From Mixia osmundae IAM 14324 (lineage: Eukaryota; Basidiomycota; Mixiomycetes; Mixiales; Mixiaceae): 64,000 bases of DNA. A model generated the notes under the pieces. It was not told the DNA's origin. It worked only from the letters and a program-made list of their open reading frames with translations, and searched no databases. Positions 1 to 64,000 of the stretch are shown piece after piece; the first letter of the stretch is position 1; each line of letters starts with the position of its first letter. A program made the position numbers and the translations under genes. The stretch spans positions 62,001 to 126,000 of the forward strand of contig NW_014575551.1 of NCBI RefSeq assembly GCF_000708205.1, given 5' to 3'.

Positions 1-1480
1 TCGCCATCCAGATTCTTGGTCTCAACGTAGCAGACATTTTCCTCCTCGGAAGTGGCGCAGATGACAATATCGGCTGGTATGCTGTCGTCGTTCCTCAAAA
101 GGACAAAGTCGCCTACCCGCAGGTTTTCCCAAGTCTGATTGGTCCAGCCTGTACCATCGCCGGACGAAGCTTTTGATGCCTCGTTGTCAATTTCGCCAAG
201 TGGAGATTCTGAATAGTCTGGCTCAATCACGCCGGCCTCCTCAGCTCGCTTGCCTGTCGCAGACTGGAGGTTGCCACCGCCTGGAGCATCGATAGGCGGG
301 GAGGCGTACTGCTTTTCTGGGTCCACCGAGGGGTCCGTCTCGTCATACGCAGGCGCGGGCATTTTACTAACTCTGCGCTTCTTCCTGCCCCAGAAGTTCC
401 TCGTATGATCCTTGTGGTGTTTCTCGCTAATCTGCTTCAGCTCGGCCTCTTCTGCCAGGCGCTGCCGTTCACTTTCTTCTGCTGCCTTTTTGACATCGTG
501 CTTCGTGCCGATATGGAAGCCAGAAAGGAAGGGAAAGAGCGTGACGAGCGAGACTGCCTTGCGTTTCTCCTCGGTGATGTTCACATTGTGGAAGCCAGGG
601 CCCTTGAGGGTCTTGATGGTAAGATTGTTGATAGTGCGATCCGAGCGGTGCCTTTGGACATCCTCGTATGCGTCTTTGACAGCAGCGAGTGCCAAGACGA
701 CGATGAGCGGCAGTGCAGCGAGGGCGGGCGAGACATTGGAGAATCTAGGGAAGAATTGCAAGATGACGAGGATCAAGAAGAAGATGTTGGCGACTCTTCT
801 GAACTGTTCGAGCAGATTCTTGGGGATGAATGTGAGGACGTTGTATTTGCTTGTCAGAACCTACTTCGCGCGATCAGCGCACGGAATGATTGCAAGCGAC
901 AGCAGAGCTTGCCTGGTTGCTGCTGAACTCCCACTCAGGTGCAGGGACTTTGCCTACCGCGCGATCGAGCTGATCGGACTGAGGATCCATGCCTTGCTTC
1001 TTGATCTGCTTCTGACCTGCTTTGGAGGGGGCCCATGCCTGAACCGGGAGCGGATGGCCGAAGAGGACTGTCCTCGGTCGGCCGGGCTTGCGCTTGGGCT
1101 CGAACATGGCCAGCAAGTCAAAGTCGGTCACTGCAATGCTGACGATCATCAGCTCGTTCAACGAGGGTGAAACAGGATGACTTGCTCTTGTCGAAGCGTT
1201 GTCTGATCTTGCTTTTGCTTCGACTCTCAGAGATAGGGACCATACGAGCTCCCGAGTGGGAGGCCTGCATGGTGCTGTGACGAGGCAGCTGGCCATCTTC
1301 TTCGTCTCTCGAGCGCAAGGGCGTCATGCCGGCTTGCTGAGATGAGCCGCCGAAATTGGAGGACCGTCGGGCAAGCTCGTCTCTGTGATCTGCCGAGCGG
1401 ATCTGATGAGATGCAGCAGACGGCACGAGCGAGGACCTACTGTGATGCGTTGTGTTTGTGTTGCGGTCAAAGATTCCCAT
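1..1480 (-). CDS. P4-type phospholipid-translocating ATPase (flippase), N-terminal part, runs off the window
   Basis: The protein would flip phospholipids to the cytosolic leaflet of plasma or Golgi membranes (Dnf1/Dnf2-like branch of P4-ATPases). The minus strand encodes the family entry motif TSKYNVLTFIPKNLLEQFRR followed by two hydrophobic helices (VANIFFLILVILQF and LAALPLIVVLALAAVKDAYED), a charged insertion rich in Lys/Glu, then the actuator-domain start (NLRVGDFVLLRNDDSIPADIV, ending CYVETKNLDGE). The catalytic DKTG region lies beyond base 1. An intron at 861-912 joins SSNQ to VLTSKYN and begins with GC rather than GT. The first exon, starting at ATG 1480 (MGIFDRNTN), is low-complexity Ser/Arg-rich. 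Its junction to the MFEPKRK segment, near 1120-1165, is my best guess. The 5' end is therefore less certain than the core. Confidence 0.8.
861..912 (-). other. GC-AG intron in the P4-ATPase gene
   Basis: On the minus strand the exon ends CAG, followed by GCAAGC, and the intron ends AAGTAG before GTTCTGACAAGC. Splicing here restores the family sequence SNQVLTSKYN. The GT donor I tried just upstream (GTGGGA) runs into a stop codon. A CTGAT branch-like element precedes the acceptor. The CAG/GCAAG context is what known GC-AG introns use. Confidence 0.75.
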
Positions 1481-2063
1481 GCCTCTTCAGCGTGAGATTG
1501 CGTGTCGCCCTCTTCAGGTTTGTGACAGTGCGCGATGGCGATGTGTAGCTGACAACGCTCCGCTGGTGTGCGTGGCAGGATGTTCTGTGCTGTGTCAGAT
1601 AGGGGTGGCCATGGACTGCGCCGAGTGATTGCTTCCGCCGCGGGAATTAGGCTGCCGCAGTGTACGAGTGTGAGCTCGATCTGACGTCGCTCGGAGTGAA
1701 GTCCGGGCCGTCGTGCGAGCTCAGAGTGGCTTGTATGTCTGTGGTGTCGGTGATAGTCTGGCTCGAGATCGAGTCCGAGCCGGCTTGGCCAAGAATGTGC
1801 AGGCAAAGCGCGCGAGGAGATAGGGCGACGGCGTGGGTGATGCCGACTGAGCTAGGCGGCCGGCGGTCACTACGCACGGACCTAGTCTTCTCTGCAAGGC
1901 AGTTCGCTCTACTCGGACTGCGGCTCTCAGGACAGACACGGGACAGCTCCGCCTCTCTGAGATCCTCCTCTCAGATCAGGCCGTGATTTGTCACGCCCAG
2001 GCTTCTCGGCCGAGCTGATCAACAACCAGCGCGCGGCGTTCCGATCGCCTGGACCGGTCAGGC
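1481..2063. other. Divergent intergenic region between the flippase and the hydrolase
   Basis: This is 583 bases between two divergently transcribed start codons. Several open frames cross it on both strands but none shows family similarity or a good start, so I read it as promoters and 5' untranslated sequence. I see no repeat or RNA gene. Confidence 0.4.
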
Positions 2064-2756
2064 ATGCTGGTCGAGCGAGTTTCAGCAGGGACTCAGCTTC
2101 GTACGAGACTGTTCAGAGCGAGCGAGTTGCATCTAGCGTCGCAGTTTGCCGTCATAGCACACCCTCTCGCGGCATATGGCGGAGACTTTGACGATCCCAT
2201 CGTCAAGCTCCTCACGAAGTGCTGTCTGGAGCAAGGCATCGACGTGCTCACCTACAATGCCCGTGGGACACCCTCGAGTGGCTTGAGCGCAACATGGACC
2301 CGTCAGACCGAGGCAAAGGACTTCCTTGCGCTCGTGCAAGAGATGATTGACGCGAGAGGTCATCTTGGACGGCTTCATGGATTTTGCATTGGCTACTCCG
2401 CTGGAGCAATGAGTGCTGCTCTTGGTCATCATGCTGCCACCCAAGACGTCGAGCTGAGCTTCTGCTGGATCGCGATGCCTGTCAGCTTGATCTGGGCTTT
2501 GTGCTCCTTCCAGACCGGTTGGCTCTACACGTCCTTTGACAGCGTTGCGAGGCATCATCGGATCCTCGTCGTCTTTGGCACGCAAGATGCCTTTACTTCG
2601 CATTCGGCATACGCGCGCTGGACGGGTGTGCTCAGTCGCAAAGCGACTCCCGCCAGCCTGACTGTTCGTCCGCTAGCTGGCGCCGACCATTTTTTCCTGG
2701 AACACCGTGAAGAGCTGGCTGACGCCGTTCGGAGCTGGCTGAAAGCGCAACGCTAG
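2064..2756 (+). CDS. Alpha/beta hydrolase fold protein
   Basis: A 230-residue intronless protein with an alpha/beta hydrolase layout. An early strand and loop (AVIAHPLAAYGGDFDDP) resembles the oxyanion region, then VLTYNARG, then the nucleophile elbow GYSAGA near residue 113. Asp in FGTQDA and His in GADHFF fit the other two triad residues. It resembles the compact COG2945-type hydrolases more than large lipases. I cannot name its substrate. Start ATG 2064 is the first in frame. The stop codon TAG (2754-2756) overlaps the stop of the convergent SWD1 gene. Confidence 0.7.
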   Translation: MLVERVSAGTQLRTRLFRASELHLASQFAVIAHPLAAYGGDFDDPIVKLLTKCCLEQGIDVLTYNARGTPSSGLSATWTRQTEAKDFLALVQEMIDARGHLGRLHGFCIGYSAGAMSAALGHHAATQDVELSFCWIAMPVSLIWALCSFQTGWLYTSFDSVARHHRILVVFGTQDAFTSHSAYARWTGVLSRKATPASLTVRPLAGADHFFLEHREELADAVRSWLKAQR

Positions 2757-4482
2757 ACGAGCTCTTCTAGACGGCCTCGACCTGGTCCAGCCACGGTAGG
2801 ATAGAACTCGAAAGCGTCCTCGTCAGGCGATTCATCTGCATAGTCATCTAGCGGCGGCGTAGCAGGCCGGTCGATCGTGAAAGCATCGACTGGAAAGTCT
2901 TGTTCGTCTTGCTTCCTCTGCTTCACGATCGTCTCGTCTTCCTACGGTGCGTCCTGTGAGCACGATGTGCCTACGGATAAGCAAGGAGACCGACAATGTC
3001 GAATTCGTCCTCTGCTTCTTGATACTCGACGTTCTCTTGAAGCTCCTCGAAGCCAGGCGCATAGGCGGACCAGCTTTCTGTCGTACTGGTGACCCAGACA
3101 TGGATCAGCCCGAGGCTCGATGCGCTGATCACGATCGGCTTGAGGGGATGCCACTATCGCTGCGGATCAGCTCGGTCCTGGCAAGAATGAGGCGCAACAT
3201 ACGTCTATCGCCTCTAGAGGATCTTTCGGACCTTCGAGAATCTTTGTGAGCGTGCCGGTGGCGACATCCCAGATGTAGACATTATGGGAAGAGCTTGAAT
3301 CTGCGCCGCCGATGACGTAGTCGCCGTCTGGTGAGAATGCACAGTCTTTCCAGGGTGTGCGACTGATGAGATCGGTAAATTTGTGTTGCATGATCATGCT
3401 TCCGTCTTGCGCGTCCATCGCATAGATCCGAACGCATCTGTCGCCTGAATTGACGACCAAAGAGCTGCATAATCGCAATCAGGCTTGCTCTACCAGAAGT
3501 GATGCGATCAGACTGACGCGCCCCGTTTGTCGAAGCGCAAGCCTCTCAACGCCGAGTTGGGAGAGACGATCTCAGTATGAAGCAACTGGTCGCGCTATAA
3601 GCTCTGTGCAAGCTTCTAGCGAGTGGACGCAAACCTGGCGCGTGGCAGTCTCGTAGATATGCAGACTGCCTTGGCTTGTGCCGACAAAGATGAGCTCGCC
3701 GGTCGTGTTGAAGGTGACCGCAGTGGCCGCATTCCTGTCATGGGATTGCTGCCCCGGTCAGCTCTGTTGACTCGTAGGGTGAGCGCTCGACCTTCTGCGC
3801 GGGGCCTTCTTTGGCGCCTGATCGTCTGTCGTGTCCATATCGTCTTCCTGCTCAGCCTCAAGGAGCCAGCGTCCGCCGCGTTGCTTGCGCAGGTCGATCA
3901 GCATCGCGTCGGCTTGGTTCTGCAGCGTAGCGACGAGCACCTTACTGTCCAGCAGGCGGCGTGAGTCGTGGCACATCGACGCACCTCGGCATCGCCTACC
4001 TGTTGCGAGGATGGAATTGCGCGTTAGTGACGGGTGCATCGCACCTGACAGCGTCGCGACGTTCGCCCGTCTCGACATCCCAGATGATGACGTTCCAGTC
4101 TTTGGATGCACTCAGTAGATAGCGACCGTTCTTTGACCAGCTGACGACCTCGCTCCTCCGTCAGACTCGCGCGTCACCTCGTCGTTTCGAGAGAGAGAGT
4201 CAACTGACCAGATGGACGTGATGGCCTTGACATGGCCTTCGAAGAATTTGATAGTGCCCTTTGTCTCAAAGTCGATGATGCTGATGCAGCCATCTGAGCG
4301 GCCGACGGCGATGAAGTGACCTGCAAAGAGGCCGCCAGAATTGAATTTGACGATGCTCGCATAGCTGTCGAGTGAGCAGTCTATCGTCTCTGGAAAGCTC
4401 TGGGCGAAGGGATCTGCCCGGCCTGCATGAGATGTGTGCTGCTAGAAGATGGCATTGGCTGACTGGTGAGCTCAAGATTCAT
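2753..4482 (-). CDS. SWD1: COMPASS histone H3K4 methyltransferase subunit Swd1 (RBBP5-like WD40 protein)
   Basis: RBBP5/Swd1 is the beta-propeller scaffold of the Set1/COMPASS complex in the nucleus. At least six short exons are visible on the minus strand. A 19-nt first coding exon MNLELT spliced to RADPFAQSFPETID gives the family N-terminus. Later come the blades VSWSKNGRYLLSASKDWNV, KVLVATLQNQADAMLIDL, FNTTGELIFVGTSQGSLH, the RBBP5 hallmark FTDLISRTPWKDCAFSPDGD and HPLKPIVISASSLGLIHVWV, then an acidic tail DDYADESPDEDAFEF. Introns use unusual GTCAGC, GTCAGT and GTCGGT donors. The stop (2753-2755) overlaps the hydrolase stop on the other strand. The start lies 106 bp from the divergent 5-phosphatase gene. 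Confidence 0.85.
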
Positions 4483-4588: not shown

Positions 4589-7500
4589 ATGGCCGGAGTA
4601 GCAGAGGCCGAGCAAGATGAGGTCTACGATGTCCGCTCGCTCAAGAGTCGCTTCGAGCAGCTCAGCCTCGCCAAACCGAGCCAGAGCACGCCGGCGACCG
4701 TACAGCCCGTCAGGCCGGCAAATGGATCAAGGACTTCTCTGCTCAGCTCCGGATCGTCGGGCCAGTATGGGACAGCTCCATCACTGACACGGGATGCTCA
4801 GACACTCAGCGACGATGACGCTGCACTGTCTCGGCGGGGTAGCAAGGTCAGTTTGGCCTCGGCGCCAGACTTGCCAACTCGTCCGAGCCAGTCTGGCCAG
4901 AGCAGTCGAAGAGGGTCATCCTCGGACCCGCTCTCACAGGTCGTCGCTCGCTCCTTGCCCCCGCCAGAGAGTATGCCTGCCTGGCGACGCAAAGCACCGC
5001 CGCCGCCGCTCCCGCTCGAAAGGCCATCGGTGCTGACGGTCTCCCCTGCTCGTTCGCTCTCGCTTGCCTCGTCCGACAATGACTCGTATGACGAGTCTGA
5101 ACTGCCCAAGCCAAAGCTGATCCGCACTCATCGACTGTACGACGAACAGCATTCGCCAGTGACCGAACGCAAGACCTACTTTGCCTCGCCCTCGTCATCG
5201 CCAGGCGAGCCCACTGCCTTGGCCGAGCCGTCTCCCAAGCCAGTTGTGCCTCCGAGACCGACACATACCCTCATAGGAGCTTCTGCTGAAGATCCGTTCG
5301 ATTCGAGACCGCTTACACCCTCGCAGGCTCCGCCCAAAGTGCCGCCGAGGCCATCCCAGCAAGCGCTTGCCAATGCACGCAGCGTCCAGACGGCAAACGG
5401 TCTCACAGCTCCGCCTGTCCCGCCTAGACCTCTCACGCCGCCAAGAACCGAGCCAGGCATCACGTCGCTGGCAGGCCTGCCAGTGCCACCTTCGCGTACC
5501 GCAGCCGCTGCAGCGCTTGCGGTGCCCATCAGACGTTCTCGAGCGATGACGTCGTCATCTTTTGCGAACGGCAACGACTCGGAGTCCGATGAAAGCCCAG
5601 AAGCGGACGACGACTCGAGCGCGAAAGGCCGTGCCGACGAATTGCCAGAATCTGCATTCGCTAATCGCAGGCCGCCGGTGACGGACCCACCCCGGTCCTG
5701 TCATTCGAAACATCAGATCTTAGCTTTCGCGGTGCATGATCGACTCGTTTGTGCGGCTGGACAGCACCATCTCCGCGTCTATGACTCGCTCTCGGGCTTC
5801 GAGCGATATTCGATCGCTCTTGCAAGCAGCGAGCATCGCATCACAGCACTCTGTTTTCGCGCAGAGGCTAATCCTCGCGATTCACCTCGCATTGTATGGG
5901 CCGGGACGCGTGACGGTGTGCTCGCGGAGATCGACATACAGCAGGATCGGGTCGTTCAACATCGCTCATCGCTTCATACTGGGCGCATCACAACTATACA
6001 GCAGATCGGCCGAAGTATGGTCACCATCGATGAGTCTGGCAAAGTGCAAACTTTCACCAGCGACGTCGCTGCCGGCGATCAGAGCACCTGCAGCATTACA
6101 GACGTGCCGAGGACGCAGCGCATACATCTATTTGACCATCAGACTGCCGTCTTGCTCATAGGTAACAAGATCTGGACAGCTCAACCCCCGCCAAAAGGTG
6201 CACGCGGTCCCCTGATACGCGTCTATGATCCTCTCGCCACTTCTGGCGCATTTAGTCTCACGTCAAAGCCTGCAATGACGACAGACACTTTTGCCTTTGT
6301 GGGCGCAGTAACGAGTGGCACGATTGTGCCCAGGTATGATCATGTCTACCTTGGCCACGAGACGGGGCATGTCAGTGTCTGGTCGCAGCGTACGCTCGAG
6401 TGTCTCAAAGTCGTCAGAATATCCAATTACCAAGTGACTGCGCTCTGTGGGGTGACCGACTTACTCTGGGCAGGCTTCCGAACTGGTTCGACTTACGTCT
6501 ACGACCTGAGCAAGGAGCCCTGGATCGTACGCAAAGTTTGGCGCGCCCACAGCGAAGGCGTCGTCAAGATCATTGCAGACCTAAGCGTCCTGCTCTCGGT
6601 GCGCCTGGCCATTCGCTTGGTAACTGACACTAAATTTCTTGCACAGAGAGGCGAACTACATGTCGTCAGCGCGGGACTCGATGGTTATATTCACTTTTGG
6701 GATGGCTTTCTCAAGACAGACTGGACTGACGCGCGCCTAGACGCACGCAAAGAAGAGTACTGCACTTTCCGAGACATCAGCGTCTTCATCTCTTCCTGGA
6801 ACGTCGACGCAAACAAGCCTCGCGAGCTCAATCGCGATGGCAAAGATATGACTTATCTCCACGATCTCCTTTCGTCGAGCGGCTCGCCTGATCTCCTCGT
6901 CTTTGGCTTCCAAGAGATGATCGATCTCGAGAGCAAGAAGCTGACGGCCAAGACGATGCTCTTTGGTCGCAAGCGAGCGGATTCGGTCTATTCGGATGCC
7001 GTCTCGCATACCTATCGTGCTTGGCACGAGACGCTCGCTCAGTCTGTTCGAATGGCCATGGATCCTGCGCAGCCTTACGAGGTATTGCAAGCTGAGAATC
7101 TCGTCGGTCTGTTCACGTGCATCTTTGTCAAGTCATCCGAGCGGGCTGCCTTACGCGATGTAGCGCTCACGAACGTCAAGACTGGCATGGGCGGGCGATA
7201 TGGTAATAAAGTAAGCTAAGCACGGGGTCTCGGCGGCTTTGACTTACATCTTCGTAGGGCGCGATACTCGCAAGGCTTGTCGTTGACGACACTTCACTCT
7301 GTTTCATCAACATGCATCTCGCGGCAGGTCAGCGACACCTTCGCCAGCGCAACAAAGACTTGGTCGACATTCTGGAAGCAAAGTCAAGTTTTGCTGAGCA
7401 CCCGGTTCATGCACCATATGCCTACTATGGAGGCGGTAGTGGTGTAAATGTATTCGACCACGAAGTCGTCTGGGCGCAAGGCGATCTCAACTATAGGATA

Positions 7501-7947
7501 GACATGCGGCGCGACGCAGTACTGGAAGCTATCAAGCAAGGAGATCTGGAAGCCCTGTGGGCGCAAGACCAGTTGCACAAACAGATGAAGACAAATCAGT
7601 CGTTCAGACTGCGTGCGTTTACAGAAGCAAAGATATCTTTCAATCCGACGTACAAGTATGATCCCGGAACGGACGAATACGACTCCTCCGAAAAGAAGAG
7701 GATACCCGCCTGGTGCGACCGCATTCTGTGGCGGGCCTCGCACAAAGGCCAAGTGACGCCGCTTAGCTACCAGCGTCACGAGGTCAAGATTTCGGATCAC
7801 AGACCGATTTCTGCCAGGTTCATGGTCAAAGCGAAGCGGATACAGCATTCTCAGAGAGACGCTTTGCTGGCCGGCATTAACGCAGAATGGAAGACTGAGC
7901 AAGCCAGACTGGCGTCACTGGCTACAGAGACATACTTCGGGCCGTAG
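4589..7947 (+). CDS. Inositol polyphosphate 5-phosphatase with proline-rich N-terminus and WD40-like domain
   Basis: This enzyme would remove the 5-phosphate from phosphoinositides or soluble inositol phosphates. About 1087 residues after removing introns at 6599-6646 (48 nt, in frame and stop-free) and 7211-7257 (47 nt). Residues 1-320 are disordered and carry repeated class II SH3-ligand motifs (VVPPRPTH, PPKVPPRPSQ, PPVPPRPLTPPR). Residues about 370-720 read as a WD40-type propeller (HLRVYDSLSGFERYSI, HVVSAGLDGYIHFWDGF). The C-terminal third has the 5-phosphatase motifs: SSWNVDANKP, FGFQEM, FINMHLAAGQ, WAQGDLNYRID, PAWCDRILW and SDHRPISARF. The catalytic set looks intact. The stop is 72 bp from the convergent carrier gene. 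Confidence 0.88.
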
Positions 7948-8019: not shown

Positions 8020-9259
8020 CTACCGTGTGCGCAGCGAATCAGCCAACACTCGCAGCTGCTCTAAGATGAGGAAGATGGCCACGGTGTCTGTCGATTTTGT
8101 CAGCTGCTTACTTGAGTCTGATGTAGTCACGCACTTGGCCCGAGTCTAATCCACGCCGGTGTCCACCCTCGAAATACCCAGCCAGGCCCTTCCGCCTTGA
8201 AGGACTTTGCCACCACGCCCAGGGCCTGCCATGATGGTCAGAGAAGTCGTTGTAGGTGGCAGTGAAACTCACAGTCTCTTTGCCGGAAGCATTCATGATC
8301 TGTGCGACACATCAAGACCTGGGCAGACTTCTTTTGATTGGCTTACGCGTGACTTTATTACGTCGAACGGAGAGCAGATGGTAGTAGCGACGGTGCCAGC
8401 ACAGAAACTTGCGCTGAAGTGAAGCCAGAGGCCTTCTTCGTAGAGCTTGGAGCTGAGCAGGAAGTCCTTGAAGGTGTCATAGGTCGCGAGCTGACTGGCG
8501 TTCATGAGGATGGCGCGCGTCACATTTGGGCCCAAGCCACGAAAGAGCGTCAAGGCGCCTTCGGTATTGACAATGCGAGCGAGACCATCAAAGCTGTGGT
8601 GTGCGTCAGCGGAGAGAATGCAGCCTCTGGCCCGACACGGACCAATGGCGATAGCGCAATTGCTCCGCGGGCGGCCGGTTCACGTCGCCAATCATCCGGA
8701 CAAGAATCACATCTGCTGGGTTACCCGCCAGACCGCCGAGTCCGCCAGCTCCCCCTGCAGCTAGCGCTAGTTTCCAGACGGACAGGGAACCGTCTGTGAC
8801 GCGCGCATGTTCAGCGCGATAAAGGCTGCAGAAATGACTTTAGCAGGCCTTGCTTGTCTCTGAGAGCGGTTTTGAATGAGTCATAGACACCGAATCGAGT
8901 CAGGGAATCTGTTGAGGGGCAAGGGGGCACCCGAAGAGGCAGAAGGAGCGCTCAGCTGACGATTGCAGAGAATGGAGCTCTCGAGACTGACAAGTCATCT
9001 GTCGCAGCAGGCTTGCAGACAGGCCGGTGTAAGCACCTTTCCTGATACCTGCATCACGTATACTGCCTGCGAGTGTACCGAACATGCCCTGTCGTTTGCC
9101 TGCTTTGCCGAGCGTTTGCATCCGCACTTTCGTCAAGTCGAGCGGATGTGTAAGGCATGCTGCCATGGATGCAGCTGCGCCGCCGAGCCAGAACGGATAC
9201 TGCGTCGGGGCTCGCTGCTTCTCAGCCCGTCTAGCGCTGCCAGCTGGAGCATCGCTCAT
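8020..9259 (-). CDS. DIC1: Mitochondrial dicarboxylate carrier (SLC25 family, Dic1-like)
   Basis: This inner-membrane carrier would exchange malate or succinate for phosphate. Three carrier repeats are visible, each with the PxDxxK/R signature: PLDLTKVRMQ, PADVILVRM and PFDVIKSR. The third repeat ends with the Dic1-like WVFRGWTPAWIRLGPNTV, which is recovered only by splicing out a 47-nt GTGCGT intron. The MSDAPAGSARR start at ATG 9259 gives a normal short N-terminus. Several other 45-60 nt introns interrupt the gene (for example before TRFGVYDSF and before FDGLARIVNTEG). It sits head-to-head, 102 bp away, with another mitochondrial gene (uL11m). Confidence 0.85.
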
Positions 9260-9361: not shown

Positions 9362-9948
9362 ATGGCTACCAAAGCTGCACAGCGAGTCAGGTAGGCCATG
9401 CATAAGGAGCAGACAGGACAATGCTGACGTGGGACTCACTCGAGGCTCATCGTCGGCGGCGGGAGAGCGACTCCAGCGCCGCCAATCGGTCCTGCGCTCG
9501 GCAGTCGAGGACTCAAAGCAGCTGACTTCTGCAAGGAGTTCAATGCTCGCACGGCTCATCTCGAGCCAGGTATACCCACCCGTGAGCAGCTATACCCGAG
9601 ACCAAGCAGGCGGTGGCTGATCCAGCAGTGGATTCAGCTGTCATTTTGACCATTCAGCCCGACAGGACGTTCACGTTCACGATCAAGACACCGCCGACGT
9701 CTTACTTCTTGCTCAAGGCAGCAGGCGTCAATATTGGAAGCGGCGCGACGCCGGCAGGAAGGCAACTCTTTGACACGGCCAAGGATATCGCGTCGAGTGG
9801 CCAAGTCGGCCAAGTGACGCTCAAGCATATCTACGAGATTGCGCGGATAAAGTCAACAGACGATCATCTGAAGCATGTGCCCATACAGAGCTTAGCCACG
9901 AGTGTCCTTGGCTCCTGCCGAAGTATGGGCATTCGCGTTGTACGATGA
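9362..9948 (+). CDS. MRPL19: Mitochondrial ribosomal protein uL11m
   Basis: Large-subunit protein of the mitoribosome GTPase-associated region. Three exons (introns 9391-9444 and 9582-9628) give 161 residues. The sequence reads [20 protein letters not shown], then [20 protein letters not shown], the L11 linker [20 protein letters not shown], then [18 protein letters not shown] and a C-terminal rRNA-binding domain ending SMGIRVVR. The second 3' splice site (GCTGAT branch, then CCAGCAG) is chosen because it keeps L11 spacing. An earlier acceptor would add about six residues. There is no obvious long presequence. Confidence 0.85.
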
Positions 9949-11895: not shown

Positions 11896-12240
11896 ACTTG
11901 CGATTGAGGCAGCGGACGAGGAACTGGCGCGAGGCTAGGGCGCCAGTTGGGGAGGGTGGCTCCTATATGAGCGAGACGACGCGCCGGTCATGAAGCTTCC
12001 GAAGCTTCTGAGAACAGTACTTTTGATCGAGTAGGCATGGTGCTAATGAAGCTGCGGGGCTGGACCAAGGGACGGGCGTAGCACATGGCCGCGTGGCTCC
12101 TCCGTCGCGTAGTCTGCGCGTTGCGCGCCGTGCCTGCTCGATCGGTAGCGTCCTCTTGCGGAGTTTGTACGGAGAAAGGCTCAGCCTCATTTGCCGGACG
12201 AATTATTGGAGGGCATCCGGACACAAATCTAGCCGGAACC
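11896..12240. other. Divergent intergenic region, possibly partly coding upstream of the reductase
   Basis: 345 bases separate the 7TM and reductase start codons. The reductase frame stays open up to an ATG at 12085, which would add 52 residues rich in Arg/Ala/Ser (MAAWLLRRVVCALRAVPARS) like a mitochondrial presequence. I treat it as 5' leader because ATG 12241 fits the family length. Confidence 0.4.
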
Positions 12241-13401: not shown

Positions 13402-14085
13402 CTAGATGGCACCTGTTTGACGGTCAGGCCAAGTCCGCTCGTCTCACACGACAGACTCACTGAGGTTGCCAAACTTCTCTTGATATCCATCGACGGTGAA
13501 TTTACCACGTTTCATCATCGATTCTACGACCTGGGCAATTTCTGGTCGAGCCTTGTTGAGGTCGTGCAGGGTGAGATCCTCAAACGGACGAGCGTCCTCA
13601 ATGTCCTTGAGGGTGCCGTTGAGCTGCTGAAGCTCGGTATCGATCTTTGACTCTGCCTGAGTGGCTGCCTCGACTGCTTTGGCCTCGAAGGCATCGATAG
13701 CCTTGAGTTGCGCTCCGAGATCGTAGTCGACAGGCTTAAAGTCGTTGTACAGCTTCTCTGCCTGGCTGATGACATCCTTGTTCTTCAGTACCTCACGGTA
13801 GTGAGCAAAGTCGATGTCCGCCTTTTGCTCCTTCAGGCCATTGTTCGCGATCCTGGCATCATCGTGACGCTTTCGGAAGGCTTGCAGAGTCGAGACGGTC
13901 TCTACAAGCATCACAAAGTGAGCATACGCTGCCGTCATCGTGCAGCGGGCAAGCTGCGGACCTTTGGATAAGCCAAGCTTGCTGTATACTCGCGTCCATT
14001 CGACGGCTCTGTGCATAGACACAGCGAGTCAGCGCTATTGCAAGGAGCAGCTGAGCAGCACGCACGCTGCGGCTGCCTTCGACAT
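13402..14085 (-). CDS. ATP7: Mitochondrial F1Fo ATP synthase subunit d (peripheral stalk)
   Basis: Four exons assemble to 172 residues with an exact frame. A 20-nt first exon gives MSKAAA, then AAVEWTRVYSKLGLSK, then ETVSTLQAFRKRHDDAR, then the helical stalk IDFAHYREVLKNKDVI and KPVDYDLGAQLKAIDAFEAK, with DLTLHDLNKARPEIAQV near the end. Introns are 57, 60 and 48 nt. The 60-nt one (GTCCGC donor) is in frame and stop-free, so naive translation retains 20 wrong residues. The last intron (13413-13460, GTGAGT and CTGAC) gives the tail FGNLSAI. If it is retained the protein ends at 13444 instead. The gene is divergent with MOG1, 103 bp apart. Confidence 0.87.
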
Positions 14086-23967: not shown

Positions 23968-25719
<1,752 letters not shown>

Positions 25720-27617: not shown

Positions 27618-32602
<4,985 letters not shown>

Positions 32603-50091: not shown

Positions 50092-50284
50092 CGTCTGTGC
50101 CGGACCGCAGCAGCTCCTCCGGCAGCCCATCGGATGGCATGCTCCCTTGATCGGAGCGGCGGTCACTCGCTCTCTCCCCAGTCTCGCTGGCTGGCCGCGC
50201 TGCTGCCGCCTGTCGCCTGTCGCCCGTCGCCCGCCTTGGCCTCCGTCTCCTCGCCTCGTCTCCCGCCAAGCATGGCCTGAGACG

Positions 50285-53200: not shown

Positions 53201-54421
53201 ATCGTCGCAGGGTGCTACAGCGTGGGCGAGGCTCCAAGCCTGGCCTGACAGCTGCTCAAGATGTCAACGCGAATCTCCTGCGACGCAAAAGTACTCGTTT
53301 GTGGGGCAACCGTGTTGAAGAAGTCACGCCCAGCCAGATGGCAGCACTTGCTTCTTCGGCGGGAGCAGACAGCGAGAATCCGGAGAATTGTAAGTATTTG
53401 TCTGCCATCTGCAGCTTTGTCACTGGCTGATAAAGGCGAGCAGTCTCATTCAAGTGGGTCAAGGGCGATCTCATTGGCAAAGGCTCCTTCGGTTCCGTCT
53501 ATCTTGCGCTCAATGCCACCACGGGCGACATGCTGGCTGTCAAGCAGGTCGCGCTGCCCAAAGCATCTGATGCAGATGACGGACGACAAGCTTCCTCGAT
53601 ACAAGCGCTGCGTTTCGAGATTGAGACTCTCAAGGATCTCGATCATCCTCACATTGTCCAGTACCTCGGTTTCGAGGAAACGACAGACTTTATCAGTATT
53701 TTCCTGGAGTATGTCCCGGGCGGATCAGTCGGCCGCTGCCTGCGCAAGCACGGCAAGTTCGAAGAACCGGTGATCGTCTCCTTCACAATGCAGATCCTGG
53801 AAGGGCTTACGTACCTTCACGACCGCGGCATTCTCCATCGAGACCTCAAGGCGGACAACATCTTACTCGACCTTAATGGAACATGCAAGATCACCGACTT
53901 TGGTATCTCCAAGAAGAGCACTAGCGGAATTTATGACCCCGACGAGAACACGATGATGCAAGGCTCCATCTTCTGGATGGCGCCTGAGGTCGTGCATAGC
54001 GCCAACAAGGGCTACAGTGCCAAATGTGACACGTGGTCCCTTGGCTGCGTGACTTTGGAGATGTTCTCGGGCAGACGGCCATGGGACAGCGAGCAAGCGG
54101 TTGCTGCCATGTTCAAAGTAGGCTATTCCTTTATGCGAGCAAATGAGCTCGGCTGACAGTGTTCATATAGCTCGGCGCCGAACGACTGGCGCCACCGATT
54201 CCACGCGACGTCAAGTTGACGACAATGTCGGCTCACTTCATATCGCAGTGCTTCATCATGTGAGCAAGCTCTATCTACCGGTTTGCGCCCTGACGTTTGC
54301 GGTCAGTAATCCTGACCTGCGCCCGACTGCGCAAAAGCTTCTCGATCACCGCTTCCTTGAGCTTCCTGCCGACTGGACGTTCGAGCAATCGAGCCTGTAC
54401 AAGTCAGTCGTCTCCCGTTAA
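50285..54421 (+). CDS. BCK1: Bck1-type MAP kinase kinase kinase (cell wall integrity pathway)
   Basis: Bck1 relays protein kinase C signals to the cell-integrity MAPK cascade. A Ser-rich N-terminus is followed by a small domain (GSIVLVTQDSEQLTTVDLSG, SPEAVRERLLSRLRIED) resembling the Ras-binding-like region of Byr2/Bck1. About 850 residues of disordered Ser/Pro/Gln sequence follow. The family signature KKSIRVVAQDRRRVLQR and LLRRKSTRLWGNRVEEVTP precedes the kinase domain: LIGKGSFGSVYLALNATTGD, AVKQVAL (Lys), GILHRDLKADNILLD, CKITDFGISKK, SIFWMAPEVVHS, and DLRPTAQKLLDHRFLEL at the end. The active site is intact. Introns follow QTRK (GTATGC) and ENPEN (GTAAGT), with two more near 54118 and 54270. 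Confidence 0.88.
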
Positions 54422-54609: not shown

Positions 54610-55194
54610 TCAAGCGAAGAGCCAGACAGTGGCGAGCCAGATTGCGAGCAAGCCGAGGCCCATAGCTTCATGATCGTCAAGCCCGCCGAGATTGAGCTTG
54701 ATCTTGTTGGCTATGTCTGCAGTAGGTGCAGAGACGGGCTTGCTGCTGCCGAGCGATTGACCCTGTCCCCAGGCGTGGGGACCAGACTGAGCCTCGCCGG
54801 ATGCGTGTTTCTTGATCGCTCGTTCAAGTGCTGCCTTGTCTGCGCCCCGCACCTGGTCGACTTTTGCTCTGTTCTTGAGGACGATGAACGTCGGCATAGC
54901 GGAGACGGAGTACTTTGAGGCCACGTCCCTTGCTTGGTCTACATCGACCTTGAGAAAGACCGCCTGACGGTACTTGCTGGCCAAATCGCGATAGGCGGGC
55001 GCAATGACTTTGCAGGGCCCGCACCACGTCTAGAGATCCTCAATTAGCCGTCGACGCATGGACAGTGAGAGAGACAGGCGGCATACCGCATAAAAGTCAA
55101 TGATGACCGCTCTCGAAGCTGCCTTGTCGAGGATGCGGTCGAGTGCCGCTAGGGATGACACTGGCGTGACGTAGTCTGCTGCCGTGGTGCTCAT
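54610..55194 (-). CDS. Thioredoxin-like protein with C-terminal membrane anchor
   Basis: Two exons (57-nt intron, GTATGC donor) give 175 residues. The thioredoxin fold is clear: [20 protein letters not shown] with the CxxC active site at about residues 39-42, then FLKVDVDQARDVASKYSVSA, MPTFIVLKNRAKVDQVRGAD with the cis-proline. After a 40-residue polar linker the protein ends in a hydrophobic helix (GLGLLAIWLATVWLFA) at the very C-terminus, the pattern of a tail-anchored protein. Ordinary cytosolic thioredoxins stop at about residue 105. The target membrane cannot be read from sequence. ATG 55194 follows a long open leader without another methionine at a sensible place. Confidence 0.8.
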
Positions 55195-55714: not shown

Positions 55715-56377
55715 ATGGCATACCGACAGCAGACTCGCCCGGGACAGCCTGCCAATGGCAGCGCTCAGTTGCACGGACCGATCGACTATTACGCGCTACA
55801 GCAACATCAGATGCTGCTCGAGATGCAGCAGCAGGCTCAACATGCCGCATGGGAGATGCAGCAGCTCGAGTATCAACAGATGCTCATCCAGCAGATGCAC
55901 TACCAGCAGCACTACCAGCAACAGCAGCAGCCGCAGCAGCCGCAGCAGTACTATGCGGGTTCCCAACACGTCACTCCCGCCCGACGTCAGCCTCGCCAAC
56001 TTTACCACGGCCAACACGGTCCACCACACTCTTTCGCAACGCCTTCGCCCCCTTACACTGCTGCCGGTCATCCCGCTCGCGTCTCGCCTCCCATCGCGCA
56101 GCCCTCAGAACGCAAGCCGTCCGGCCCCATGCAGCGCCTTCACTCTGGCGGCCCGCGCAATGCCTGCCAGGCCATGCGCCAGCCCATCGGTCCCCCTCGC
56201 GATGATGAGATAGCTTCCAAGAACTTCTCAACTCGCATCAGAGCCAGCGCTATCGGGTGGGCTCATCATCAGCAACGCTCATAAGGTTATCCGCTGATGC
56301 ATCGCTCGCGTAGCACACTTGGCTCGGCGGTGCGCGGCCGCATGACCAGTGCTAGCTACATCGACGTCTCCGCCTGA
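55715..56377 (+). CDS. Gln-rich protein with basic conserved-looking C-terminus
   Basis: Two exons (intron 56257-56313: GTGGGC donor, CTGATG branch, GCGTAG acceptor) give 201 residues. Residues 28-75 are dominated by Gln (YQQHYQQQQQPQQPQQYY, encoded by CAG/CAA runs), then Pro/Ser/His-rich sequence. The last 35 residues (NFSTRIRASAIGTLGSAVRG, then RMTSASYIDVSA) are basic and ordered-looking. Without the intron the protein would end in an unrelated HHQQRS at 56284. I do not recognise a family. Q-rich fungal proteins are often transcriptional or RNA-granule factors, but that is speculation here. Confidence 0.65.
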
Positions 56378-56474: not shown

Positions 56475-59400
56475 TCACTTTGCAAGGTATAGCGTCTCGC
56501 GAGCCTTCTGGACGCTCAAGCCTGTGAAGAAGCCACTTCCGAAGAGCATGAGAGAGATGCCTTGAAAATAGCAGCGGGTCGGATTGAGAGTCGACTGAGC
56601 AACCTCGGATGACCCTTGTGTACTGAGTAGCGTGTCGTGCAAGTCATTCTCGAGCGCGCGAGGACCTTGACATTCAAAGCATTCGTCTGTTTGCAGTCAG
56701 CCTCGCGCGCTGCATTGTGACTTCAGCTTGCCTGTCTCGCGTTTCACTGTCGCTTGGGACGATGTAAACGTCACGTCTGTAGCTTGCGTTGCGAGAGCTA
56801 CGTGCTCATCAGCAGTATCTCCAGATCGACGGGACGGCTTCGTACTGTCATTAACAAAGATGGATACTTTCATCGAAGCAGGCGAAGTCTGAGCAATGCA
56901 TATGTCGAGCTTGCTCCAGGAACCGGCAGGGAACGACCATGCTCCGATGCCCGCGTAGATCTTGCCCTTCCATCTGCAGTCCGTTTGCGGAGGCGCTTTA
57001 CAAGCTTGTCCAGATTGCCGGACATTCTCTGCGTCGATCAGAAGGAGACCAGTCCCATTCTTTTCCCACTGTAGGCACCCCTTCAAAACATGCACTTGAG
57101 GGACGGCAGATCACGCACTGTCGGGCTGATCGTGTAGTTCGCGGTACCTAGCCTTCCGTGAAGACCAGGAAGCTTCCCTTGGCTTCGAAAGTTAAAGGTC
57201 TCCGGAAAGAGCACGTCGTAAGTGAGCCGCATGGTTGATACACTGCGGGGAGCCACTATCCGAAGCTATTAGCTCCGTTTGTGCTGATATCTTTCGGACG
57301 GTACCAGGTAGGCCAACAGCTTGTTCCAATCCCACAGACAGACTACGGGCCGGTGAGCTATCCGGTCGCGCTTCCAGAATGACATCGTGTTGTCGAGCTG
57401 GTTCTTTCGATGTCGCTGCTTGCTCTTCCAAATGCGACGTAGCAATCGAGCCGTGAGCGGTCGATGAGCTAGTAATGACTTCAGCGGAGTAATCGCGATG
57501 CTGACCTGGACCGAGAGAGCGGGCGCGCAGTATGGTCTCTACCGTCATAATGATGACACGAGTCGAGTGTATCGCGTCCACGCTTGAAGGCGCATAGCCG
57601 GAAGCAAAGGCTGCCTGAGAGAGAGACGAGCTGGTAAGGTGCTCGAAATGTAGAGGTATCGCGGGGTCGACACTCTCGACGAACTCGACTTTCGTGTTGC
57701 CCCAGGGCCAGCCATCTGAATAGCCAAATATATAGGCAAGATCTCTACCGCCACTCGCATTCTGAATACGCCATATTTGTGTGCTGGTGTCTGTCGTTCC
57801 ACTCGGTAACGCACGACGTTTGACGCCGCCACCAGAAGGTGAATGATCATGATGATGCTTGTTCTGGTGTTGAGCGTGTCGCGCCTGCCTGGCTCGCTCG
57901 CGCGCCTCTTTGTGTATGCGATGTGTCGAATCAGCTTCCATCGTCACTGTGGCGTAGGAGAGATCGGTGACGACTGCCGTAGCCGTCTCGTACACGGTCT
58001 CTGGCTCCTCCTCAGCGTCGAAGGAAGAGCTTGTCGTTTGCTCGTTTTGCTCTTCGATCGACGAGGTCATGGAAGCCGCCGCTGTCGCTTCAGCCTGCTG
58101 AATTGTGACGGTCTTGGTATGGACGATAATTGCATGGATGGTCTGCTTCGTCGTTCTGACCGCAGTCTCTGTGACGCTATCTGTCGTCAGGCGAGTCTTG
58201 TAGACTGTCGTAGTATCCTGGTCGGTCTCCGTCACTGTCGACGTGTGAAAAATATTGCGTGTCTTGATTGTCGTCACCGTTGCTGCAGGCACGCTCTCGA
58301 CGATGACTTGTGTGCTGGGAAATGGGACAGTGCAAGTGACGACAGTTGTGCTCGTGGCGAGGTCTCGTTTACGCAACGCGCTGCTACGATCATCCTTATC
58401 CCATCTGAGTGTCCACAAGATCTACATGCAGTGCATGAGACAGAATGGTAGCATATGGCTGAAAGGTACTCACCTCTTCGCCTGCGTCCTTCGGGTGACC
58501 ATGCTGATGGTGATGGTGATGTTTGTGGCTATGTACATGTGCATGCGTGCGGTGCGCTTGACGAGCCGAGCTGGTCGACTGGTCACTACTAGCGGTAGGC
58601 TTCGTCGTAGCATCGTCAATACCTGCAACAGACGAATGCGGTCCTTGCTGGGCGTAAATAGTCAGTCATAGATTGCCGTCATCCGATCGGACGACACACC
58701 ACCATGATTCCACTTCGAACGCCATAGGGCAGACCGTACATGCGCTGAGCATAATTGTCGATGGCGGCGAGGGGAAGGATGCCAAATGTATCGCTGCTCA
58801 AATTGGCCTGCGTGATACCTAGGTCGTCTTTCACGAGCTGGTAGGCCAAGGCGATCTCTCGCTCCGACTGCGTAATCGCTTCTTGATATGTGCTACTGTC
58901 TATCACTTCCGGATTGAGCCATTCGTAGCCCACGCTGGCATTTTCGGCACGCGACTGGCTGCGACGCGCATGAAAATGAGGCAAAAGGACAGTGTCTATT
59001 GATGATGTGTCGATCCGCGATAGTATGACCAGCGATGCGCCGATGAGCAACACTGAGAGGACTAAAGCTCTCGCGACTGCCCTTTTGCGCCGCTCGTGCT
59101 GCGCAATGTTGCGTGCCAGGCGATCGCGTTCGTTTGCTTGCCATCTCTGCCTTGCATCGCTGGCACGCTGAGACCTTGTCAAGCCCGGCAGCTTGCGCGA
59201 TGCAGCGTGACCATGGGGTGAAGTGTCCCAGACCTGGTTGAATAGGTCATCCCTGAGCGCGTACTGTCGCTTGGGCGTGCTCGGCGGTCGAGGGCTGTCT
59301 GAGAGACTCTCGTATCGATCATGTAGCTTCTGTGGACTACTCGTGCGCGCTGCACGATCCGGGCTGCCGCGAGGGGAGCTCGGACGGCCCTTGCCATCTA

Positions 59401-59884
59401 CCCATCGACTTGAGCCAGGCCAGACAGGCCGAGGAGGTGTGCAAGGTAGAGGGGACCCGGCCGCAGGCGTCGAAGCTTGTGCAAGCGGAGGCGCAGTCCG
59501 CGCGGCTGTGATCACTGCATTTTCATAACCCGCTATTGCTTCAGTAGGCGCGCAGACGTCCGACATCGCTTGTCCGTGCTCTCCCAATATATCGATCGAT
59601 TTGGATTCGGTAGTAAGATCGATGACTTCAGTCGTCGGCGTGGAGAGCTCGCTGGCCTGAGTGGACGTCGCGATCTCGCTCGCCAAACTCGGATGAGCGG
59701 CAGCTGAGCTGATCGAGCAGAGAGCTGAGCTGAGGTCGGATCTCTGCTCCGAGTCGCTTGACGCCGGACCGAATAGATATCCTTCGCCTGCAGAGGGTGG
59801 CCCTTGTGGATTCGCTCTGAAGGGCAAATGGTGAGTGTCCAGCTGGCTCGCAGTCTGACATGGTATGTCAATAGGCTCGGACAT
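56475..59884 (-). CDS. Type II membrane protein with disordered cytosolic head, Thr-rich stalk and PL14-like polysaccharide lyase domain
   Basis: From ATG 59884, about 265 disordered Ser/Pro-rich residues lead to one transmembrane helix (ARALVLSVLLIGASLVILSR). The outer part includes YEWLNPEVIDSSTYQEAI, then YGLPYGVRSGIMV spliced (52-nt intron, CTGAC branch) to QGPHSSVAGIDDATTKPTAS, a His-rich stretch and a long Thr/Val stalk (TSTVTETDQDTTTVYKTRLT). The C-terminal third resembles family 14 polysaccharide lyases: LTYDVLFPETFNFRSQGKLP (continuing GLHG), GAWSFPAGSWSKLDICIAQ and ISLMLFGSGFFTG. The downstream exons have no methionine of their own before the stalk, which forces the joined model. 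The last splice, near 56540-56700, is unresolved. Confidence 0.6.
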
Positions 59885-60201: not shown

Positions 60202-61302
60202 ATGAAGTGCGTGGTGTGCTGCTTGTCGGACTGATCATCGACTGATGGAGTGACCTGGCAGCTATGTCCAGCTCGAGAAGCTCGGCGAGGTGCACAGCGC
60301 TCGAATGTTGACTCGCGTTCGACGCTGATGCGTTTGCGTCACTGCAGGGTACCTATGCGACCGTACACAAGGGCAAGAGCCGCACGACGAACGAGATTGT
60401 CGCCTTGAAAGAGATGTGAGCGAGACAGGCCAGGCTCGCTCGCTGGCAGTCTGGCTGACGGACAAGCATAGCCATCTTGATGCAGAGGACGGCACGCCTT
60501 CGACGGCCATCCGAGAGATCTCGCTCATGAAGGAGCTCAAGCATCCCAACATCGTCCAGCTCTACGATGTCTATCACACAGAATCAAAACTCATGCTCGT
60601 CTTTGAGTTCATGGACCTCGACCTCAAGAAGTACATGGACTCCCAGGGCGACAGAGGCGCGCTCGAGCCAGGCGTCGTGCGCTCCTTCATGTACCAGCTC
60701 CTGAAAGGCACAGCCTTCTGTCACGAAAACCGGGTGCTCCATCGGGACCTCAAGCCACAGAACCTGCTCATCAACAAGCGCGGCGAGCTCAAGTTGGCCG
60801 ACTTTGGTCTCGCCAGAGCGTTCGGCATTCCCGTCAACACCTTTTCCAACGAGGTCGTCACGCTCTGGTACCGCGCCCCGGATGTGCTCATGGGTAGCAG
60901 GACCTACTCGACCTCTATTGATGTCTGGAGCGCGGGCTGTATCATGGCCGAAATGATATCTGGCGTGCCTCTCTTCAGAGGCCGTGACAACAACGATCAG
61001 CTCAACCAGATCCTGCGCATCGTCGGCACGCCGGATGAAGCGACACTGATGCGCATTGCTAACGAATCTGTATGTCTCCGCGCGCAAGTCGTGCCATTAC
61101 GGGCAGCTAATGAGCAATTTTTCAGCCTGAGATCCAGATGCGTCCGTTCCCGAGAACGCCAAAGATACCCTTTGCTCAGCTATATCCCAAGGCCCACCCT
61201 CTGGCGATCGATCTATTAGAAAAGTTGCTCGTCTTTGACCCATCGCGCAGGCTGTCGTGCGAAGAAGCGTTGCGCCATCCGTACTTTCTGCCACCCAGCT
61301 AG
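60202..61302 (+). CDS. PHO85: Cyclin-dependent kinase Pho85 (Cdk5-like)
   Basis: Pho85 with Pcl/Pho80 cyclins controls phosphate, nutrient and cell-cycle responses. Five exons (introns 55, 58, 56 and 56 nt) give 291 residues in an exact frame. The first coding exon is only 5 nt (ATG AA), then [30 protein letters not shown] (catalytic Lys in ALKEI), the cyclin-binding PSTAIRE helix in [68 protein letters not shown], and [20 protein letters not shown] near the end. The [10 protein letters not shown] and Asn-Thr-Phe-Ser activation loop are Pho85/Cdk5-specific. The stop is 83 bp from LSC1's. Confidence 0.92.
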
Positions 61303-61385: not shown

Positions 61386-62774
61386 CTATGCCAGTCCTGC
61401 ATCCTTCATGGCTTTGAGCATGATGCTTCCCAGCTTGGCAGGACTGTCCGAGACAAAGGCGCCTGCAGCCTCGAGCGCCTTTACTTTGTCGTCTGCACCG
61501 CCTTTGCCACCGCTGATGATCGCACCAGCATGGCCCATTCTTCGACCGGGCGGCGCCGTCCTCTGCCGAGCTAGTGGTCAGCAAGAGCACGAGCCAGAGA
61601 AAGTCCAACCTACGCCAGCAATGAAGGCGACGACGGGCTTGGGTACGCTTCGGGACTTGTTGAATTCTTCGAGGTAAGCAGCCGCCTCCTCTTCCATCGT
61701 ACCCCCAATCTCGCCGATGAGCACAATACCCTTTGTATTCTCATCTTCCATAAAGGCCTTCAAAACGTCGATGTGCTGTCATGCCGATAAGCTTGCGCAT
61801 AGCAGACATTGGGCTGGCTCACCTGGGTGCCTGGGAAAGGATCGCCTCCGATGCCAACGCAGAGTGTCTGGCCGAGTCCCACCTTTGTTGTCTGGTCAAC
61901 AGCTTCGTAGGTGAGCGTGCCCGACCGCGAGACGACGCCGATACAGCCCGGGCTGAAGATATTGGCAGGCATGATGCCAATCTGATCGAGTCAGCATCAG
62001 CCTGGGCGCGACACTCTTTGCCCTCGGCAATACACAAACCTTGCAGCCTCCGCCGGAAGCAGGCGCCATGATACCGGGACAGTTGGGACCGATCATGCGG
62101 GACTTTGTCTGGCTACGGAGGACTTGAGCAATTCGAACTTCGTCTTGCTGTGGGATGCCCTCGGTGATGGTGACAATGAGAGGGATCTCATTTTCGATGG
62201 CGTCGATGACCGCGTCCGCTGCGAACGGAGGCGGAACGTAGAGTACTGTTGCGTCCGGCTTGCCTTCTCTGACGGCCTGTCTTGTCCACACAGCTCAGCC
62301 CGAGCGCATGAAGAGGAGCCAAGCGCAAGCAGCGCGACGAACATCCTTGACGCTGCCCCATACGGGCAGACCGAGATGCTCCTGGCCTGCTTTCTTGGGC
62401 GATACACCTCCGATGAGCTTGGTGCCATAGTCGAGCGCCTCCTTGCAGTGGAACGTCGCCTGTCACGCCTCACTGTCAGCGACGGGCGCGGTACGTTCGT
62501 GTCTGGCAAAGCCACTGACCGTCTTGCCCGTGAAGCCTTGGCAGAGCACCTTTGTGTCCTTGTGGATGCGGATGTTGGCAATCGTCTGTTCGTACCTGAG
62601 GACAGCGAAGACCATGAGCTCCTTGCTGGTGGAGAGGCAACTCGAGGCGCGGGGCGGGCTCGAGCTGCCTTGCCAGCTCTGCAGGCTTGCTTACAGGGAC
62701 GACGAGGCTCGGGAGGTACTGGCAAACGTGCGCACGCCGCTCCGAGCGACGGCTGTCCTGCCTAGGCTGAGCAT
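61386..62774 (-). CDS. LSC1: Mitochondrial succinyl-CoA ligase alpha subunit
   Basis: This TCA-cycle enzyme makes succinate and ATP/GTP from succinyl-CoA in the mitochondrial matrix. At least six short exons are seen. A presequence ([20 protein letters not shown]) leads to [20 protein letters not shown], then [94 protein letters not shown] and [20 protein letters not shown]. The C-terminus is [19 protein letters not shown], which contains the GHAGAI phosphohistidine site, ending [10 protein letters not shown]. All family landmarks are intact. Confidence 0.92.
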
Positions 62775-62894
62775 CCTAGCCGCTGAAACGTTGGCAGTGG
62801 ACCGAAGCGTGGAGCTTTGCGCCTGCGCAACTTGCTCGCGACCGTCGACGTCAGTCCAATTTTGCTGATTCGCCCCTTTTCGAGACCGTGCAAC

Positions 62895-64000
62895 ATGGTG
62901 AGCGCTGTCCCTGCTCGCAGTCGGCACTCTGACTGATGAGGACGGCTGACCCTTGCAGAAGGTACGAGTCATCCAGCGCTCGCTCGACGATCACATGCCG
63001 GCAACATTGGGCGCACCTCCGCCGACAAAACGCAACCTTGATCCATCTCAGCATCCCTTTGGCAGGCAGAGGGAGTACCAGCGAGCACTCACTGCAGCCA
63101 AGATGGACAGGATGTTCGCCAAACCGTTTGTCGCTTCACTAGAAGCCCACGCAGAGGGTGTCTACTCTCTCGCTCGCGATCCAGAAAGACTGGGCGTCAT
63201 GGCAAGCGGCGGCGCAGAGGGTGAGATCAAGCTTTGGTCGCTCCCAACACAGTCTTCTCTTCTCACGGTCAAGAACGCCCACAAGGGAATCGTCAGAGGC
63301 ATCTCCTTCTGTCCGCCTGCACACGGCGCATCGCGTCGTCAGTTGCCGACTGCTTCCACCTCGCACGACGATCCAGACGGAGCGCAAGACGACGCGAACG
63401 AAGACGCCGCCGATGATGACGATCGCATGCTGGCTCGTCTTCACGGTCTGCCAGACACAGATGACGGCTCCCACGTTCGCGGCGAGAGCAAATTTCTGAC
63501 CTGCAGCGTCGACAAGACAGTCAAGCTCTGGTCTTCGGCTGGCCAGCACAACAGCAGCGACTCGCCACCTCGGCCATTGCAAGTCTACTCCGGCACACAC
63601 GGCTTCAACGGTGTCGACCATCATCGTCGAGAGGCCATGTTCGCTACTGCATCGGATCGCGTGCTCATTTGGGATCAATCAAAGACGACTCCCATCACCA
63701 CGCTCTCATTCGCGAACAACTTGTCTGCTAGATCGGCAAACAAACGTGACGAGGGTTATGCAGCGGGCGAGCATCTGACGAGCGTCAAGTTCCATCCCTC
63801 CGAGACCTCTGTTCTCGCCTCGACGGGCAGTGATCGCTCTTTGACATTGTATGATCTCCGTAGTGGCACCGCGACCGGACAGACTATCATGCGCATGCGT
63901 GCCAATGGTCTCTCGTTCAATCCTTTGCAGGCCTCTGTACTACTCATCGCCTCTGAGGATCACAATCTGTATACCTACGATATTCGCAACATGTCTAGCG
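62895..64000 (+). CDS. SOF1: Sof1/DCAF13 WD40 protein of the small-subunit processome, partial at the window end
   Basis: Sof1 is a U3 snoRNP-associated WD40 protein needed for 18S rRNA maturation in the nucleolus. The start codon forms a 3-nt exon of its own (ATG at 62895-62897), followed by an intron (62898-62958, GTGAGC to TTGCAG), then KVRVIQRSLDDHM. WD repeats follow: PFVASLEAHAEGVYSLARDP, VMASGGAEGEIKLWSLPTQ, KFLTCSVDKTVKLWSSAGQ, AMFATASDRVLIWDQSKTT, ETSVLASTGSDRSLTLYDLR and SEDHNLYTYDIRNM. An acidic insertion (DDANEDAADDDDRM) sits in the second blade. The frame is open at 64000. The gene is divergent with LSC1, 120 bp apart. Confidence 0.9.

Follow-up and report, generated by a model that had tools for sequence, protein, structure and literature searches.

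In a 64-kb stretch of Mixia osmundae DNA (contig NW_014575551.1, positions 62,001 to 126,000; the whole stretch is referred to as the window and coordinates count from its first nucleotide), neighboring genes switch strand almost without interruption. Among the 36 genes mapped, 17 on the plus and 19 on the minus strand, 33 of the 35 neighboring pairs lie on opposite strands, the order being - + - + - + - + - + - + - + - - + - + - + - + - + - - + - + - + - + - +. This strand alternation is real and far beyond chance: random gene orientation would place about half of all pairs on the same strand, while only 2/35 are found there, with a binomial probability of 1.8e-8 for two or fewer at a same-strand probability of 0.5 and P = 3.8e-8 in an exact runs test conditional on the strand counts. 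An earlier sequence-only reading had counted 31 of 34 opposite pairs (33 of 36 with doubtful open reading frames, ORFs) and had placed the pattern below a one-in-a-million chance; the independent map confirms this observation and slightly strengthens it, and the accompanying claim that almost every promoter is divergent and every terminator convergent holds for nearly all mapped pairs.

Robustness of the Strand Pattern

For the gene map, long ORFs were searched against Pfam as they stand, and wherever no clear long ORF was present, the sequence was translated in all six frames, with stops written as X, and searched against Pfam independently of gene models. Gene models were obtained with a simple self-trained gene finder using intron signals, and small spliced genes were recovered by forward-only runs of the gene finder on the gaps. 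Start codons and small exons are approximate in several models. The strands of the mapped genes are not in doubt, except perhaps that of the glutamine-rich (Q-rich) ORF at 55715-56377: 31 genes have Pfam support for their strand and five do not, and the sense frame outscores every other frame in 29 of 29 ab initio models by leave-one-out coding scores. A generic intron-pattern scan did no better than on shuffled sequence.

The 35 pairs, all from one window, give a same-strand fraction of 5.7% (95% interval 0.7-19%), and the longest same-strand run comprises two genes, so that the window holds no unidirectional, polycistronic-type cluster. When only adjacent pairs with Pfam support for both genes are considered, 24 of 26 are opposite (P = 5e-6). 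Omission of the five unsupported genes, a test that can only weaken alternation, leaves 25/30 opposite and 5/30 same-strand pairs (P = 1.6e-4). Since a gene missed between opposite neighbors would bring in one same-strand pair and one opposite pair, a worst case with each of the four largest gaps hiding a gene would give 6/39 same-strand pairs and, by our own arithmetic, P ~7e-6.

Same-Strand Neighbors

Three same-strand exceptions had been proposed in the sequence-only reading. Two of them, SLC41/ESA1 and IPMK/PCC1, stand, while APT1/SLC41 falls because a gene lies between them. The intervening ORF, previously called doubtful, belongs to a real plus-strand mitofissin (ATG44) gene of four exons (21429-21820; PF08520 1.1e-27 over the full length of the spliced model), which separates the adenine phosphoribosyltransferase gene APT1 (20614-21117, minus strand; PF00156 1.3e-7) from that of the SLC41/MgtE-like Mg transporter (21928-23710, minus strand; PF01769 3e-13 and 1.6e-11). 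With its four exons, the mitofissin gene is easily overlooked when ORFs are read. SLC41 and the MYST acetyltransferase gene ESA1 (23852-25602, minus strand; PF01853 1.8e-85, last exon from the gene model) are a true tandem pair, with coding regions 141 bp apart once the last ESA1 exon is counted.

The second pair, both on the minus strand, consists of the inositol polyphosphate kinase gene IPMK (40531-41579; PF03770 1.8e-13 and 4.5e-13) and PCC1 (41548-41917; PF09341 1.4e-15). The two coding sequences, read in different frames, have 32 bp in common (41548-41579), because the IPMK frame has its first ATG at 41579, upstream of the stop codon at which PCC1 ends (41548). The location of this ATG inside the end of PCC1 suggests that the two genes may be expressed as a single unit, bicistronic or alternatively spliced; if so, alternation of transcription units would be maintained at this position. 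A plus-strand gene in 16837-17997, which would have added a same-strand pair, was considered and rejected, as no model scored above 0.

Intergenic Spacing and Sequence Motifs

Gene spans (coding exons plus introns) cover ~85% of the window, with 36 genes in 64 kb, or 1.8 kb per gene, few introns of mostly ~50-60 bp, and a fairly even guanine-cytosine (GC) content of ~57%. The 16 convergent gaps have a median length of 68 bp and the 17 divergent gaps a median of 279 bp. Measured by coding start, 15 of the 17 divergent pairs show the head-to-head arrangement with starts less than 1 kb apart by which bidirectional promoter pairs are recognized, and 16 pairs show the tail-to-tail arrangement with very short gaps that is expected of convergent genes with overlapping 3' ends, as in Cryptococcus neoformans. 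In two cases the stop codons of convergent neighbors overlap by 4 bp, as CTAG at 2753-2756 (hydrolase/WD40) and as CTAA at 35816-35819 (methyltransferase/SRP receptor beta); here, each 3' untranslated region (UTR) must run inside the opposite gene.

The longest gap, 1.77 kb between MED6 and COX17 (38368-40133), contains the sole 200-bp stretches below 46% GC as well as five CACGTG E-boxes, and no gene, tRNA or Rfam match was identified in it. Neither this gap nor 16837-17997 yielded a coding model on either strand or a Pfam match beyond the flanking genes, and tRNA genes and Rfam families gave zero matches within the 64-kb window. The 38.4-40.1 kb gap was also considered as a Malassezia-type centromere, and this reading was rejected, as the lowest 200-bp GC fraction is 0.445, compared to the very low ~16-23% of Malassezia centromere cores (PMC7025860).

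The 4-mer ranked first in convergent gaps is TGTA, counted 29 times over both strands where 9.7 would be expected from the window, an enrichment of about threefold. Markov shuffles gave 10.5 and reached 29 in 0 of 2000 cases, and the enrichment survives removal of the two largest convergent gaps (17 vs. 6, P = 0.0005). Divergent gaps show no TGTA enrichment (24 vs. 21). Counted with 40-bp flanks, TGTA is present on both strands in 7 of the 16 convergent gaps. UGUA is a 3'-processing element of the cleavage factor I type, and this identity, together with the enrichment, lets the convergent gaps look like two-way 3'-end regions, with TGTA as a candidate two-way signal. The palindrome TGTACA is found among the TGTA occurrences of convergent gaps. 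A different palindrome, TGATCA, is enriched in divergent gaps (11 vs. 4.0 expected; present in 9/17) and is a candidate orientation-free promoter element. Enrichment of CACGTG as a general signal of divergent gaps was rejected, since one single gap supplies it. All motif tests were picked after looking at the data and count as leads.

Gene Content of the Window

The window is fungal nuclear DNA, as judged from its introns and from genes for a pentafunctional AROM protein, MED6, TFB2, THO2, NDC1, and a BYR2-type kinase. Its gene density, sparse introns and short intron lengths suggest a compact basidiomycete yeast. When AROM, ESA1, GH47 and the kinase domain of the MAPKKK were used as queries for fungal relatives against viral contigs, and ESA1 and AROM against genome contigs, no fungal contig was returned; the AROM matches in these searches were bacterial.

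The window opens within a P4-type ATPase (phospholipid flippase) gene, whose 5' part (1-1149, minus strand; gene model, PF16209 5.6e-20) extends beyond it. This is followed by genes for an alpha/beta-hydrolase-like protein (2064-2756, plus; PF00326 2.9e-5 on the ORF), a WD40-repeat protein of ~9 exons (2753-4482, minus; gene model, several beta-propeller models, best 6.9e-11), and a WD40 plus inositol polyphosphate 5-phosphatase protein (4589-7947, plus; PF22669 6.8e-22 and 3.4e-59). A mitochondrial carrier (8020-9259, minus; PF00153 5.1e-51 on the spliced model) and the mitochondrial ribosomal protein uL11m (9362-9948, plus; PF00298 8e-22, solved uL11m chains 3.8e-41) precede a multi-pass membrane protein without family assignment, whose ab initio model scores 53 in sense and -67 in antisense (10084-11895, minus). 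Next are a zinc-binding dehydrogenase/reductase (12085-13302, plus; PF00107 4.7e-15), mitochondrial ATP synthase subunit d (13444-14016, minus; PF05873 1.4e-15), MOG1 (14189-14809, plus; PF04603 5.4e-31), a PQ-loop membrane protein (14824-16836, minus; PF04193 1.5e-7 and 4.8e-7), and an EDEM-like GH47 mannosidase with a PA domain (17998-20549, plus; PF01532 7.1e-75, PF02225 8.5e-10), which is adjacent to APT1.

Beyond the ESA1 interval lies the gene for a small membrane protein without family (25815-26270, plus; ab initio, sense 12.7 vs. -14.7), followed by those for a Fe/Mn superoxide dismutase-like protein (26333-27126, minus; PF02777 1.4e-16), the pentafunctional AROM protein ARO1 (27618-32602, plus; AROM Pfam domains, solved AROM chains 2e-294), and the nucleoporin NDC1 (32626-34854, minus; PF09531 1.7e-10). 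The overlapping methyltransferase (34932-35819, plus; PF08241 1.1e-6) and signal recognition particle (SRP) receptor beta subunit genes (35816-36763, minus; PF09439 4.3e-12) are succeeded by a possible dynactin p22/DCTN3-like gene, for which the spliced model gives a weak PF07426 match of 0.025 (36828-37552, plus). MED6, with an approximate 3' end (37902-38367, minus; PF04934 2.9e-10 and 4.8e-8), and COX17 (40134-40472, plus; PF05051 6.6e-16) flank the longest gap.

Beyond PCC1, TFB2 (TFIIH p52; 42242-44116, plus; PF03849 1e-31, PF18307 4.8e-13) is followed by THO2 (44127-50140, minus; PF16134 7.7e-64, PF11262, PF11732), for which a charged, RS-rich exon (44127-45585) was assigned as the C-terminal tail, tail and body being joined in one model. 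A BYR2/STE11-type MAPKKK, likewise one model (50285-54156, plus; PF00069 5.7e-60, PF14847 0.011), and a thioredoxin-domain protein (54610-55194, minus; PF00085 4.3e-21) lead to the doubtful Q-rich protein (plus; ab initio only, sense 15.3 vs. -25.7). The adjacent Ser/Thr-rich protein with a single transmembrane segment and no family (57083-59884, minus; ab initio, no Pfam match) was assumed to be one gene; it may extend to 56448 and could represent more than one minus-strand gene. The window closes with a protein kinase (60202-61302, plus; PF00069 1.8e-55), succinyl-CoA ligase alpha (61386-62615, minus; PF02629 2.7e-18, PF00549 4.4e-12), and a WD40-repeat protein that extends beyond it (62895-64000, plus; beta-propeller models, best 4e-19).

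Compaction as a Proposed Explanation, and Alternatives

The explanation favored here, with moderate confidence, is that the window represents a strongly compacted stretch of a fungal genome from which tandem neighbors have largely been eliminated, leaving promoter and 3'-end regions shared. In this model, the two genes on either side of a short divergent gap would share a single bidirectional promoter region, and those meeting at a tiny convergent gap would share a single bidirectional 3'-end region, with overlapping 3' UTRs. A tandem pair at such spacing would need room for a terminator followed by a promoter, and its downstream promoter would be disturbed by readthrough. Tandem pairs would be disfavored because they need more room and suffer from readthrough, and rearrangements leaving them would be selected against or could not be compacted. 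Overlap of 3' UTRs in the window is suggested by the gap sizes and by TGTA on both strands. In C. neoformans, 2,189 tail-to-tail pairs have annotated 3' UTRs, and these overlap in 72.7% of the pairs (PMC3990503); overlapping convergent ends are thus tolerated in a basidiomycete. For the whole genome, our guess is a same-strand fraction well below 0.5, in the range of 0.1-0.35; this window would lie toward the bottom of that range.

Several points weigh against this explanation. Compaction alone does not force alternation, as compact ascomycete yeasts keep co-oriented pairs, and the two same-strand pairs of the window, one at 141 bp and one overlapping, indicate that tandem neighbors are possible. 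Promoter sharing and 3' UTR overlap are both inferred. In addition, three divergent gaps measure 0.9-1.8 kb (1150-2063, 16837-17997, and 38368-40133), so that not all DNA has been squeezed.

Strand alternation across the whole genome is plausible: at a same-strand fraction as low as 35%, two or fewer such pairs in 35 would still have a probability of just 5e-5. A near-perfect genome-wide alternation (same-strand below ~10-15%) kept by a specific requirement, such as a lack of insulating termination, so that promoters must face promoters, or supercoil cancellation between neighbors, is a possibility that we regard as unlikely: the point estimate of the window and its interval are compatible with it, torsional coupling models predict mutual help of divergent eukaryotic pairs (PMC4154641), and just one true exception would remain if IPMK/PCC1 were one transcription unit, but the proposal rests on one window flagged for looking extreme, and a literature search turned up no genome with so low a fraction. 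Somewhat more doubtful still is the strict form, in which the whole nuclear genome would alternate with less than 10% same-strand pairs and form a continuous series of shared promoters and shared terminators, leaving hardly any gene on its own. Conversely, gene orientation in the genome at large might be ordinary, about half of all neighboring pairs sharing a strand, and the window might be a chance or selected outlier. It was indeed chosen for its pattern, and a survey of 64 eukaryotes found ~50% co-directional pairs in most of them (PMC2871058); however, probabilities of 1.8e-8 under a fraction of 0.5 and 5e-6 under 0.4 are hard to reach by scanning windows, and little weight is given to this possibility.

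An artefact, with same-strand genes missed or two of them fused in the map, appears highly improbable. The three gaps of 0.9-1.8 kb, the treatment of 44127-50140 and 57083-59884 as one gene each, and the odd IPMK/PCC1 spacing could all point in this direction, but the pattern withstands four missed genes, two of the three gaps lack coding models and Pfam matches of their own, and a single model joins the THO2 tail and body. Alternation could also stem from co-regulated bidirectional pairs, functional partners that share promoters, rather than from spacing. Conserved divergent fungal pairs do tend toward related functions (PMC2871058), whereas, judged by Pfam names, the divergent partners in the window are housekeeping genes with no relation to each other; neighbors without evident functional link, such as MED6/COX17 and PCC1/TFB2, argue for layout instead, and pairing of divergent partners would by itself leave the equal strictness of the convergent side unexplained. 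We therefore give this origin scant credence.

If the genome nearly forbids tandem neighbors, it would offer a natural test of how compaction, readthrough, polymerase collision, and supercoiling affect gene order. The 5' and 3' control regions of every gene would then be shared, with consequences for annotation (merged transcripts), for the design of gene deletions, and for gene-order evolution by inversion. A genome-wide same-strand fraction below 10% would make this the most extreme alternating eukaryotic layout known to us.

Comparison With Known Systems

No published statement of near-perfect strand alternation was found in the literature search, nor were published orientation counts for Malassezia or Ustilago. 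Malassezia is comparable in its compact genome, with 4,223 genes in 9.0 Mb and 0.92 introns per gene in M. globosa (PMC4634964); the gene density of the window, its few short introns and its GC content would suit a possible relative of Malassezia, although its introns look shorter (~50-60 vs. 79 bp). Kinetoplastid unidirectional gene arrays likewise show a strongly non-random strand order, but of opposite sign, with 98% same-strand pairs in Leishmania (PMC2871058). As in the window, the gaps of compact yeasts (Saccharomycetes, Ashbya) are far smaller between convergent than between divergent genes (PMC3128071). These yeasts differ in that co-oriented pairs remain a major class, in Ashbya a full category with a mean gap of 291 bp compared to 106 bp for convergent pairs (PMC3128071). 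Bidirectional promoters of divergently paired genes have the same head-to-head layout as the divergent pairs described above, yet such pairs are usually a minority of a genome, whereas in the window nearly all 5' ends, with their putative promoters, are arranged in this way.

The closest precedent is the basidiomycete C. neoformans, which is among four species with non-random gene orientation, although the direction of the bias is not stated in that survey (PMC2871058). Its 6,962 genes include 2,189 tail-to-tail pairs (PMC3990503), from which convergent pairs can be derived to make up at least 31% and, because divergent and convergent counts are nearly equal along a chromosome, same-strand pairs at most ~37%. 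C. neoformans is thus biased in the same way, but much less so than the window with its 5.7%. Two or fewer same-strand pairs among 35 would arise at P ~2e-5 under a fraction of 37% (our arithmetic), and the window therefore exceeds this precedent. A weaker orientation bias is already known, and the alternation in the window takes it to an extreme.

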